Below, one piece after another: positions 1 to 42,992 of a stretch of 64,000 bases of DNA. Numbering within the stretch: the stretch's first letter is position 1; the number at the start of each line of letters is the position of its first letter. The stretch comes from Qipengyuania flava (GTDB lineage: Bacteria; Pseudomonadota; Alphaproteobacteria; Sphingomonadales; Sphingomonadaceae), in assembly GCF_019448255.1 (NCBI RefSeq), contig NZ_CP080410.1:2170001-2234000 (forward strand), in the 5' to 3' direction. The notes beneath the pieces were generated by a model. The model did not search any database, was not told the origin of the DNA, and was given only the letters and a program-made list of their open reading frames with translations. Made by a program: the position numbers and the translations under genes.

Positions 1-813
1 CGACACCTCGAAAGCGATGTCGCGCGTGGCCTTCAGGTGCATCTCGATGCGCGCCAGCGTGTCGTTCCACACGGCCCGGTGCTCCAGCGCGTCTTCGGGA
101 ATCGTGCCATCGAGCTCGCGGTTGATCCGCGTCACCAGGTTGGCGTTGAAGCGCGCGGTGATGCCCTTCGCGTCGTCATAGGCCGCTTCGAGTACCTTGC
201 GGTCCTTCACCAGATCCATGCCGATGAGCAGCATGGGCCGCTCGCCCTCGTCCGCGCCGAGCGTTGCCCGCATCGAGCGCAGCAGGTCGACTGCGGTGCG
301 CGGGACCATGTTGCCAATGGTCGAACCGGGGAAGAAGCCGAGCTTCTTGAGCGGGGCGACCGCATCGGGCAGGCGCACGCGGCGCATGAAATCGGCTTCC
401 ACGGGATGGACGTCGAGATCGGGGAACTTCTCGCCCAGCGCAGCGGCGCTGGCGCGCAGGAAATCGCCCGAAATATCGAGCGGGACATAGGCCGCCGGAT
501 CGATCGCGCGCAGCACGAGCGGTGTCTTGACCGAACTGCCCGAGCCGAATTCGACCACCGCGCGGCCCGGCCCGATCAGATCGGCAAAGGCTTCGCCCTG
601 CGCGGTCAGGATCTCGGTCTCGGCGCGGGTGGGGTAGTATTCCTCGACCTTGGTGATCTCTTCGAAGAGGCGCGAGCCTTCCTCGTCGTAGAACCAGCGC
701 GCGGGGATGGCTTTCTGCCGCTGGCGCAGGCCCGCCAGCACATCGGCACGAAACGCGCGGTCGACGCCGTCCTCGTCGAGGTCAACAAGGGCGATCCCGG
801 AATTGGCGGTCAT
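1..813 (-). CDS. egtD: EgtD, L-histidine N-alpha-methyltransferase (3' end beyond window)
   Basis: This is the SAM-dependent enzyme that trimethylates the alpha-amino group of histidine to hercynine, the first step of ergothioneine synthesis in the cytosol. The visible 271 codons read from ATG at 813 toward the window edge. They carry the N-terminal YDEEGSRLFEEIT segment and the SAM-binding VVEFGSGSSVKT motif near residue 90, both typical of the EgtD/DUF2260 family. The full family length is about 320 residues, so roughly the last 50 are missing. The start overlaps the egtB stop by one base (TGATG), which implies translational coupling in an egtB-egtD operon. Confidence 0.9.
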   Translation of the reverse strand, partial: MTANSGIALVDLDEDGVDRAFRADVLAGLRQRQKAIPARWFYDEEGSRLFEEITKVEEYYPTRAETEILTAQGEAFADLIGPGRAVVEFGSGSSVKTPLVLRAIDPAAYVPLDISGDFLRASAAALGEKFPDLDVHPVEADFMRRVRLPDAVAPLKKLGFFPGSTIGNMVPRTAVDLLRSMRATLGADEGERPMLLIGMDLVKDRKVLEAAYDDAKGITARFNANLVTRINRELDGTIPEDALEHRAVWNDTLARIEMHLKATRDIAFEVS

Positions 814-40880: not shown

Positions 40881-41156
40881 TCACACCAGCTCCAATGCAC
40901 GCAGCGCCAACGCGACTAATGGCACGCCTAGCCAGGCAGAGAACATACCGAAGATTAGGGTGAAGCCGAAGACTTCGTTGGACACCTTGCCACCGCCTAA
41001 CGCGATGAACAGAACCAAGTAGAAGACCGCGAAAGCACCGGCCGTTTGCAGCCAGCTTGCCATCACCATCCCTTTTGCCAGTCCGACCGGAATGAAAACA
41101 AGGAGAGCGAGCACGACCAATCCCTGTCCAGTGCAGGCGCTCTTGAGCCCTTTCAT
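40881..41156 (-). CDS. Small three-helix membrane protein
   Basis: A 91-residue hydrophobic protein with three predicted transmembrane helices (about 11-30, 33-53 and 63-88). No family recognised. Its ATG overlaps the stop of the S24 repressor gene (ATGA), so the two form a transcript under the repressor's own promoter. It ends four bases from the convergent cytochrome gene. Confidence 0.75.
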   Translation of the reverse strand: MKGLKSACTGQGLVVLALLVFIPVGLAKGMVMASWLQTAGAFAVFYLVLFIALGGGKVSNEVFGFTLIFGMFSAWLGVPLVALALRALELV

Positions 41157-41830
41157 ACCCGTCCCCCTTTCCAGACCACGCGGCCGATCACTTCCACCTC
41201 CTCGCGGGCGAGGTCGATGGGGGCGTAGCTGTCGTTGGCGCTGATGAGGGTGATGCGGCCCGGCGCGCTGGCCTGCACCTGCTTGACGTGCAGCGCATCG
41301 CCGATGCGCACGACGTGGATTCCCTCGCCCTGCCGTTTGTTGCGGTCGACGAAAATTTCGTCCCCACTGCGCAGGGTCGGCTCCATGCTGTCCCCCTCAA
41401 CCCGGATCGCGGAAAGGTCCGCGCCTTCCAGCCCCATTTCGCGCAGCCAGCGGCGGCTGAAACGGAAGGCATCGAAGGAAATTTCCTCTGCCGAGAACGC
41501 GCCCGGCCCGGCCGAGGCATCGAGCGCGAGGCGCGGCACTTCAACAAGGTCGTCGAGGCTGGGCGTCGGCGCGTAATCCGCCACCGTGCTGCGCGAGGTG
41601 TCGAAGGGCCGCGTTTGGATCACGCGCGGGGATTTGCCAAGAAATTCCGCGATCTTGCGCAGGTCCGGCTCGTCAAGGTGCCGCGGGCTGCCGCGCGCCA
41701 CATATTGCTGCAGATAGGCCGGATTGCGCCCGATCAGGCGCGAAAGCGCGGCAAGGCTGGTGCCCTGCGCCTTGGCCAGGTCCTGAAGCCGTCCGCGGGC
41801 ATGACGTTCGTCGCGTGAGATGTTTTCCAT
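41153..41830 (-). CDS. Phage-type repressor, HTH plus S24 (LexA-like) peptidase domain
   Basis: A 225-residue repressor with an N-terminal HTH-like region (LAALSRLIGRNPAYLQQYVARG, split at about 26-47) and a C-terminal S24 domain. The catalytic serine is S148 (EGDSMEPTL) and the lysine K183 (HVKQV), and an Ala-Gly bond at 107-108 (ASAGPG) is a plausible self-cleavage site, as in LexA and CI. Loss of repression after DNA damage is thus possible (inference). Two dyads in its 5' gap are probable operators. It is co-transcribed with the small membrane gene downstream and diverges from the 41942 gene. Confidence 0.88.
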   Translation of the reverse strand: MENISRDERHARGRLQDLAKAQGTSLAALSRLIGRNPAYLQQYVARGSPRHLDEPDLRKIAEFLGKSPRVIQTRPFDTSRSTVADYAPTPSLDDLVEVPRLALDASAGPGAFSAEEISFDAFRFSRRWLREMGLEGADLSAIRVEGDSMEPTLRSGDEIFVDRNKRQGEGIHVVRIGDALHVKQVQASAPGRITLISANDSYAPIDLAREEVEVIGRVVWKGGRV

Positions 41831-41941: not shown

Positions 41942-42157
41942 ATGCTGATCCGCACGATCGAGAAATTCCTACGCCAGCACGATATGGCGGCGACCAAGTT
42001 CGGTCGGCTCGCCGCGCATGACCCGCGATTCGTGCTCGATCTGCGTATGGGCCGCGAACCGCGCGCGCCGACGGAGCAGCGCATCCGCGGCTTCATGGCC
42101 GGGTTCGAAGCCGCGCGCGACGCCGCGCCCGTGCAGGAGATCGCCCATGTCGGTTGA
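41942..42157 (+). CDS. Small HTH-like protein, possible Cro analogue
   Basis: A 71-residue basic protein whose pattern (FLRQHDMAATKFGRLAAHDPRFVLDLRMGREP, split across 9-40, then TEQRIRGFM) looks like a degenerate helix-turn-helix with an XRE-like G-x-xP and a-x-RI-x-x-F end. A divergent position from the S24 repressor suggests a Cro-type role, which is inference. GGGGAG upstream of ATG 41942 supports expression. It overlaps the next gene by 11 bases. Confidence 0.75.
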   Translation: MLIRTIEKFLRQHDMAATKFGRLAAHDPRFVLDLRMGREPRAPTEQRIRGFMAGFEAARDAAPVQEIAHVG

Positions 42158-42500
42158 AGCCCCCCTCGCCCCGCCCCCGCGCAGCCGCCGAACCGCCGCC
42201 GACCGCGTGCGCGCCGCGCTCGCCGAGTTGCACGAGTACCGCGGACAGGTGCTCACCCACACGGAGAAAGCCTGGGCCAGCATCACCTTCGCCGGCACGC
42301 GCCACACGCTCGCGCTGCTTTTCGTCGGCGAGGAAGCAGTAGAGGCAGGCGAGCAATTCGTTGCCGCCCTGCCCGACCACGAATTCGCCATCCCCGGCCA
42401 GCTGGTCGCCGATGCAGGCGTGACCGAAGTCGAACACCGCCTGCTGCCGGAGCCGAGGCTGGTGGTGCAGTGCGAGCTGTTGCTGCTTGAGGAGGGGTGA
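42147..42500 (+). CDS. Uncharacterised protein, coupled to the HTH-like gene
   Basis: A 117-residue soluble protein (MSVEAPLAPPPRSRR...) of unknown function, with the distinctive block ITFAGTRHTLALLFVGEEAVEAGEQF (split at about 46-71) and PDHEFAIPGQLVADAGV. AGGAG nine bases before ATG 42147 marks the start. The 11-base overlap with the 41942 gene implies coupled translation. Similar gene pairs occur in other members of this order as far as I recall; no activity is known. Confidence 0.78.
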   Translation: MSVEAPLAPPPRSRRTAADRVRAALAELHEYRGQVLTHTEKAWASITFAGTRHTLALLFVGEEAVEAGEQFVAALPDHEFAIPGQLVADAGVTEVEHRLLPEPRLVVQCELLLLEEG

Positions 42501-42568
42501 ATCGATCTGTGCGGACGTCTGCTGAAGGCGCGCAGCAATCTACACGGGAGAGGCCTGGAATGGGTGGT

Positions 42569-42581
42569 TAGCGGACGTTCG
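42569..42581 (+). repeat. Left inverted repeat flanking the Ea22-like gene
   Basis: TAGCGGACGTTCG matches, in inverted orientation, the segment at 42950-42962 in 12 of 13 positions. It lies just beyond the 3' end of the gene at 42585-42902. Confidence 0.5.
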
Positions 42582-42584
42582 TCT

Positions 42585-42902
42585 TCAGCGCTCAAGACCT
42601 TGTTTCGCAAGCCTAATTAGATCTGGCAGTGCATTGCGAACCGCAGCGATTAGCTGAGCATTTTGCTCCCACTTTTCGTCGGCTGGGACGACATACGCTG
42701 GCGACTGGATAAGACAGGCTGCGACTATCTCTTGTCCCGGCCAAGAACCTGATCTCATGCTCTCGTTCTCACCCGTGTCAGGGCGTGTGGAAACCGCGAC
42801 AGCCCCCATGCAGAGCTCGTCGTCGAGCTGTCTTACGTGCCACGGCCCTGTCGTCGCAGCTTCTTCCAAAGCCTCGAGCGCTTTCAAATCCTCAATTGTC
42901 AT
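42585..42902 (-). CDS. Ea22/Ead-like phage-type protein
   Basis: A 105-residue protein with the layout of phage Ea22-like products: an N-terminal ALEEAATTGPWHVRQ block and a C-terminal NAQLIAAVRNALPDLIRLAKQ block. These small proteins are common in prophages and have no settled function. Base composition is visibly lower in GC than all neighbours and the codon use differs, so recent transfer is likely. The start is ATG 42902; TTG 42905 precedes it. Inverted 13-base repeats bracket it. Confidence 0.75.
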   Translation of the reverse strand: MTIEDLKALEALEEAATTGPWHVRQLDDELCMGAVAVSTRPDTGENESMRSGSWPGQEIVAACLIQSPAYVVPADEKWEQNAQLIAAVRNALPDLIRLAKQGLER

Positions 42903-42949
42903 CAAATCAGACTAGGGTCCTGATTTGAGTCCGCAAGCGGATCGTTTGC

Positions 42950-42962
42950 CGACCGTCCGCTA
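42950..42962 (-). repeat. Right inverted repeat flanking the Ea22-like gene
   Basis: CGACCGTCCGCTA is the reverse complement of TAGCGGACGGTCG, one base different from the left copy at 42569-42581. The pair spans about 394 bases and encloses the low-GC gene. Confidence 0.5.
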
Positions 42963-42992
42963 TTCGGCTGACGACACGCGGCCCCACCCCGA

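Follow-up and report, generated by a model that had tools for sequence, protein, structure and literature searches.

Among bacterial gene-capture platforms, integrons serve as the standard example; their integrase gene, intI, is divergent from its cassette array. Almost all bacteria have the recombinases XerC and XerD, and p-dif modules are small gene modules moved by this pair. In PMC8618304, the integron is defined together with CALIN elements, which are clusters of attC sites lacking an integrase. Two other papers describe elements with their own linked tyrosine recombinase, namely the RIT trios and BIM (PMC3414803), and dusA integrases, in which the recombinase is likewise linked to the element (PMC4482086). 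Integrons are entirely absent from Alphaproteobacteria according to a further study (PMC9668308). In the open-licence literature, no description of the sites or of the recombinase reported here as a cassette system was found.

We analyzed a stretch of 64,000 nucleotides from Qipengyuania flava, referred to as the window, together with genomes of its genus and of wider groups (G and L numbers are our handles for genomes and loci). The window contains a 377-bp interval with a GC content of 55% compared with about 65%, which places it in the lowest 0.5% of same-length windows (step 10) and gives it a foreign look. The low GC of the gene enclosed there had already been remarked on in a first-pass annotation, and the values agree with it (0.552, compared with 0.648 and 0.643 in the 1-kb flanks). 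With a probability of roughly three in four, this interval would be a mobile gene cassette in a resident target site, moved in a system with a short tyrosine recombinase. We place the ends of this single cassette at its first and last bases in Table 1, which we infer to be the element ends, and not at a pair of inverted 13-mers nearby.

The 13-mers had been the starting point of the first-pass annotation, and they are present where it located them, complementary at 12 of 13 positions, 394 bp from end to end and enclosing the 106-aa ORF. The inverted pair alone is at chance level and not remarkable: 69 such pairs (one mismatch at most, spacing 200–500 bp) occur in the window, and 26, 26, and 49 occur in three mononucleotide shuffles. 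The 13-mer (two mismatches at most) was not enriched genome-wide, with 193 matches versus 712 for the reversed control. The 13-mers are parts of longer recombination half-sites. The resident left half-site measures 52 nt, counted from CGTCTGCT through the last base of GGGTGG. One 13-mer is the left end of the cassette, whereas the other is a piece of the resident right half-site, which removes their reading as transposon-style terminal repeats; a terminal-inverted-repeat transposon was rejected because the 13-mers do not coincide with the breakpoints. The window copy deviates from the other sites described below in its right core, GGATCG, and in a TT at the left junction.

Table 1. Features of the window around the putative cassette, with positions counted from the first base of the window
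Feature	Position	Strand	Remarks
Putative gene cassette, 377 bp, GC 0.552	42568..42944		Starts TTAGCGGACGTT, ends AGTCCGCAAGCGGATCG; ends placed by slot comparison and junction analysis
Resident left half-site	42516..42567	+	GTCTGCT motif, linker, ending ..AATGGGTGG^; counterpart of the entry site; similar layout in 7 congeners
Resident right half-site	42945..42968	+	TTTGCCGACCGTCCGCTATTCGGC; compared with array ends and right flanks of congeners
Cassette gene, 106 aa, function unknown	42585..42905	-	Weak PHROG 1667 match; no match in 59 other genus genomes
Conserved upstream flank ORF	42018..42500	+	ORF list; DNA match in relatives
Conserved downstream flank, aldehyde-dehydrogenase-like gene, 477 aa	42993..44426	-	Name read from the translation; DNA match in relatives
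Left 13-mer of the first-pass annotation	42569..42581	+	TAGCGGACGTTCG; left end of the cassette
Right 13-mer of the first-pass annotation	42950..42962	-	TAGCGGACGGTCG; inside the resident right half-site, outside the cassette

The gene carried by the cassette had been labeled as an Ea22-like phage gene. This label is weakly backed: the protein matched PHROG 1667 (4.4e-5, function unknown), and at E ≤ 1 it matched no Pfam family, including any of that name. Among the NCBIfam models, only PPK2_rel_1 was matched, at 0.0043 and far below its cut-off. No relatives of the protein were found in the 59 other genus genomes, and a pattern search of the contigs of the genome collection gave 81 matches with no relatives among them. 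Near the slot, at 41153–41830 on the minus strand, the window also carries an S24-type repressor-like gene (Peptidase_S24, 1.6e-21; PHROG 4, 3e-44).

The corresponding slot, defined as the space between the upstream ORF and the aldehyde-dehydrogenase-like gene, was examined at 30 loci. An insert between conserved half-sites was present at eight of them (the window, G023, G043, G005, G041, G047, G007, and G008). At four loci (G027, G037, G025, and G019), the two flank genes were 11–61 bp apart with no site, and four others (G017, G016, G015, and G039) had other sequence without the site between the flank genes; the remaining 14 showed the left flank only. The seven complete inserts were about 312–1245 bp long, with longest ORFs of 95–367 aa, and had no nucleotide similarity among them at E ≤ 1e-3. 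In the eighth, the insert of G008, the first 93 nt were identical, up to both contig ends, to the DNA behind the core at the recombinase of the same genome. As the comparison of these loci showed, where the half-sites of this chromosomal slot are conserved, the insert between them differs from one species to another. The idea of a small mobile cassette or non-autonomous element, already raised in the first-pass annotation, gains support from these other inserts in the same slot. A search for the empty site in relatives had also been proposed there; it brought to light the other inserts, and no empty form of the slot was found among the 30 loci.

Copies of the site were numerous elsewhere in the genus. 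The left motif AATGGGTnGnnAGCGGACrTTC (two mismatches at most) gave 79 matches in 30 of the 60 genus genomes, compared with 10 for the reversed control, and the matches were often clustered 0.5–3 kb apart. At these loci, small genes were separated by a repeat in one orientation; 50 repeat matches were collected in 14 loci, and 47 of them aligned at 92 bp with one-base length changes. The 92-bp repeat is composed of the right end of a cassette, a block of ~62 bp, and the left end of the next cassette. A sequence-only model of it, R1, had at least 485 matches in at least 53 of the 60 Qipengyuania genomes (at least 52 in one genome), and across the order it matched at least 112 of 396 genomes and at least 26 of 84 genera. 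Many of the arrays among the 34 fetched loci begin with the right part of the repeat and finish with the left part. These layouts show that the putative cassettes also form same-orientation arrays in the genus, split by the 92-bp repeat. The interpretation given in the first-pass annotation was thus partly supported: the suggestion that the 13-mers belong to a widespread short repeat was supported by the many copies of the longer repeat, which also answer its call for other copies, and holds together with the mobile-cassette reading, and what it missed was an array-forming, apparently site-specific system. Among the plasmid records, a single one matched one 92-bp repeat at E ≤ 0.001 (CP115967.1, 110909–110985, from an Erythrobacteraceae bacterium, typed as mobilizable).

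The 102 intervals between full repeats had a median length of 560 bp (223–2845), and their longest ORF lay on the strand of the repeat in 37, on the opposite strand in 55, and was lacking in 10. The 107 ORFs of at least 70 aa in these intervals matched 61 Pfam families of mixed cargo, including response regulators, cation efflux proteins, and beta-lactamase-like proteins, and none of the best 25 of the 61 families occurred in more than three ORFs.

Movement of individual cassettes was assessed from 38 cross-locus matches, of which 15 pairs were inspected. Both junctions were readable in four of the 15; in the remaining 11, one end or both were obscured by indels, continued into shared repeats, or fell within a gene. 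Three of the cassettes were common to different genomes, namely L100/L104 (99.4% identity over 2836 bp, in different contexts), L092/L137 (94%), and L094/L123 (98.5% over 11 kb), and L126/L129 (97%) occupied two places in one genome. In the four readable pairs, whose contexts differ, similarity opens at GGGTGG^nnAGC(GGAC) and stops at about GGGTCG^TTAGC, that is, just after GGGTCG or within the conserved letters behind it, and the flanking blocks differ. The breakpoints lie at the cores and the blocks are different; therefore, the unit that changes context seems to be the cassette alone, without the block. Behind the core, 26 of 47 cassette starts had the dinucleotide AA and 11 had GA, and 44 of 47 block starts had TT. 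These junctions imply that the empty target would read GGGTGG^TTAGC, and sites of this form without an evident cassette were seen in Blastomonas (L243) and in one array of G003. They also imply a circle joint, GTCCGCAATCGGGTCG^AAAGCGGAC, which would be a near palindrome; no unambiguous free copy of the bare joint was found among the matches listed, where close solitary sites only were seen.

Two of the matched stretches are unusual in content. The L094/L123 stretch (L094:6241–17331 in G009; L123:6510–17600 in G058) has both ends at cassette cores. By reading, its genes include a cysteine-synthase-like gene and a pair of a sensor kinase and a response regulator; the stretch could represent either one very large cassette or a backbone common to two arrays. 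The 2.8 kb between cores in L100:5521–8356 (G018) and L104:8077–10912 (G013) encode a universal stress protein together with a Na+/H+ exchanger.

Three array starts, two in G003 and one in G009, directly follow a short tyrosine recombinase gene, or a fragment of one, on its 3' side. The intact protein has 210 aa and aligns with the C-terminal catalytic part of Xer and IntI models. Residues R61, K89, H158, R161, H184, and Y193, which we take to be the catalytic residues, are invariant in all 51 stop-free wider copies; H158 and H184 are each missing from one of the 20 open genus copies, and many copies are broken. Together with the Phage_integrase domain (PF00589), which was over its cut-off at the recombinase copies of G003, G013, G018, and G030, the R-K-H-R-H-Y residues place the protein in the tyrosine recombinase superfamily. 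Its best matches among solved structures were XerD chains, and the nearest curated models were Xer-type, far below their cut-offs. An AlphaFold model was poor, with a pLDDT of 55. The recombinase, intact or in pieces, was present in 38 of the 60 genus genomes (identity of at least 49%), in at least 576 stretches of the genome collection, including Sphingomonas, Mesorhizobium, Rhizobium, Aureimonas, Pelagibacterium, and others, and in 134 plasmid records at 60% identity or more. A 70% identical relative is encoded in an unannotated 'Bacteriophage sp.' record from human faecal samples (MT835913.1, 7165–7773). Other recombinases were also seen. In G056 and G020, a tyrosine recombinase of ~325–328 aa occurs in several identical copies, looks like a multicopy element, and scores above the rest against the integron integrase model, yet far below the cut-off. 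Longer phage-type integrases adjacent to arrays (L129, L130, L136, and L137) were considered and rejected as candidates; three are related at 34–43%, and no constant site link was seen.

Behind the stop codon of the short recombinase come a hairpin that resembles a terminator by eye and then GGGTGGnnAGC. Within +40..+110 of the stop, and with one mismatch at most, 15 of 31 unique genus tails had this core (0.57 on average in shuffles), all 15 at +74..+81 nt, as did 29 of 73 wider, mostly alphaproteobacterial tails (1.1 in shuffles), 25 of the 29 at +76..+81; the core was missing at this threshold from 16 genus and 44 wider tails. A control stretch at +130..+200 contained no core in either set. 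Ungapped identity among the 15 genus tails was 0.29–0.54 before the core, 1.0 in the core, 0.74–0.75 over the next ten bases, and 0.23–0.30 beyond (from +15 on); the stretch before the core is thus itself only modestly similar, and a clear contrast between its two sides is confined to close copies. A looser site count (three mismatches at most, 53 of 81 tails) was set aside, since chance readily produces matches of this quality. Six records from four genera (Aurantiacibacter, Q. aestuarii, Q. aquimaris, two Croceicoccus, and Blastomonas natatoria) contain, in order, the recombinase, a start core, one ORF-bearing interval of 454–1711 bp, and an end core. These six were selected for a match to the repeat model, which 9 of 80 recombinase loci had (E ≤ 0.01), and beyond the array-rich genera such matches are few beside the recombinase. 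The tails show that a GGGTGG^ site lies at a nearly fixed distance behind the recombinase in about half of the genus copies and that the putative cassettes begin there. In a second layout (L294, L295, L298, and similar tails), a GGGTGG-type sequence stands directly behind the hairpin, at about +46 and not at +76..81.

From this arrangement, we infer that the short recombinase moves the cassettes. It would excise a cassette as a circle, with the joint given above, and would insert the circle at GGGTGG^TTAGC-type targets, which may lie beside the recombinase gene, between array blocks, or at solitary sites like the window slot. In our search of the 60 genus genomes, the short recombinase was absent from the window genome, and its cassette is therefore an orphan. 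This orphan could have been placed by a lost or visiting recombinase. Several observations count against the proposed role of the short recombinase: the tails without a core, the many broken copies, the altered core and the missing recombinase of the window genome, the few repeat matches beside the recombinase in the wider set, the lack of a bare joint or an empty slot among the loci and matches examined, and the poor agreement between recombinase presence and repeat number described next.

A different and unlikely account takes the 92-bp unit for a REP/MITE-like repeat dispersed between genes. Homologous recombination, or an unrelated enzyme that acts on the repeat ends, would then have shuffled the genes, and the recombinase would merely be trailed by a copy. 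Repeats are indeed abundant without the recombinase, which was not found in G058 (52 repeats), G010, G026, G029, and G025, some of them among the genomes richest in arrays, and G027, G038, G039, and G040 have recombinase sequence yet no repeat match. Across the 60 genomes, the repeat count did not follow the presence of the recombinase (medians 5.5 and 3, p = 0.32). Several solitary partial sites exist besides the arrays, and the typed consensus of the repeat folds well into a stem-rich structure, as this account would allow. Against this account stand the length nearly fixed at 92 bp, the breakpoints at one core on both sides in the four readable pairs, and the position at +74..81 behind the recombinase stop. 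The different inserts between conserved half-sites at one slot also speak against it, and neither a recombinase nor a transposase family was found as a cassette gene among the best 25 of the 61 Pfam families from the 107 ORFs.

It is quite improbable that the cassettes are dif-module-like and moved by the chromosomal XerC/XerD. The wide occurrence of both enzymes would make this feasible, the array-rich G026 has only three PF00589 matches, two of them of Xer size, and the proposed joint has inverted arms, like the site of a tyrosine recombinase. However, no resemblance of the site to the 11-6-11 dif site was seen by eye, and a different, short recombinase lies at a nearly fixed distance from the same core.

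A classical integron, or a CALIN of attC cassettes without IntI, is very improbable, even though the layout is close to one. The arrays, the small single genes, a crossover after G and before TT, and a recombinase beside an entry site are all in its favor. Recombinase, entry site, and cassettes occur together in part of the copies (the 15 genus tails, the 29 wider tails, and the six ordered units), and tandem arrays of mobile small-gene cassettes were found, with mobility judged from sequence only. Besides the well-folding typed consensus, 2 of 10 single foldings (five repeats, both strands; z from -3.1 to +0.9) came near z = -3. Against this, the integron integrase model TIGR02249 exceeded its cut-off in none of the 60 genus genomes, its weak sub-cut-off matches occurred in all 60 and in all 14 control genomes, and the short recombinase scored 25 bits versus a cut-off of 265. 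RNAalifold on the 47 aligned repeats gave no conserved fold (-2.8 kcal/mol), and by eye the breakpoints are not at RYYYAAC..GTTRRRY ends. By these fold and box tests, the repeats are not attC, and the arrays are thus not CALIN in the sense of two or more attC without intI. The block also appears to be left behind when a cassette changes context. Finally, an ordinary strain-specific gene with chance repeats is barely conceivable: the chance level of the 13-mers alone speaks for it, but the slot comparison, with different inserts between conserved half-sites, contradicts it.

Returning to the cassette system with the short recombinase, we lean slightly towards a wider interpretation, in which Alphaproteobacteria would have independently evolved a counterpart of the integron. 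A minimal tyrosine recombinase of ~210 aa with an adjoining entry site would capture recombinase-free cassettes at a G^nnAGC core, assemble up to dozens of them into arrays (perhaps with 11-kb units), and exchange cassettes between species, with solitary slots as secondary targets. In this interpretation, the absence of mixed sequence from the junctions hints at a one-strand exchange or an unusual overlap. If true, a working alphaproteobacterial counterpart would explain part of the species-specific gene content, cassette capture would have arisen more than once, and a very small recombinase with defined sites would be at hand for testing and DNA engineering.

Compared with the known systems, RIT trios, BIM, and dusA integrases are similar in having a recombinase linked to the element; however, they carry their own recombinase, whereas none was seen here among the best 25 of the 61 cassette families. 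The p-dif modules are likewise small gene modules bounded by half-sites of tyrosine-recombinase type, and differ in the site sequence, the array repeat, and the kind of recombinase. CALIN elements resemble the cassettes and arrays without a recombinase, as in the window genome and G058, whereas the sites here are not attC by the tests made. In contrast to integrons, the recombinase here has 210 aa and is not IntI, its gene runs towards the array in the cases seen whereas intI is divergent, sequence and length but not fold are conserved in the repeat (47 copies), and the inter-cassette block seems to stay in place when the unit moves. Like integrons, the system combines a tyrosine recombinase gene, an adjoining entry site, and tandem arrays of small-gene cassettes, with a crossover after G and cassettes common to several species. 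By the two defining molecules tested, IntI and attC, the system is not an integron, but it appears to work like one.
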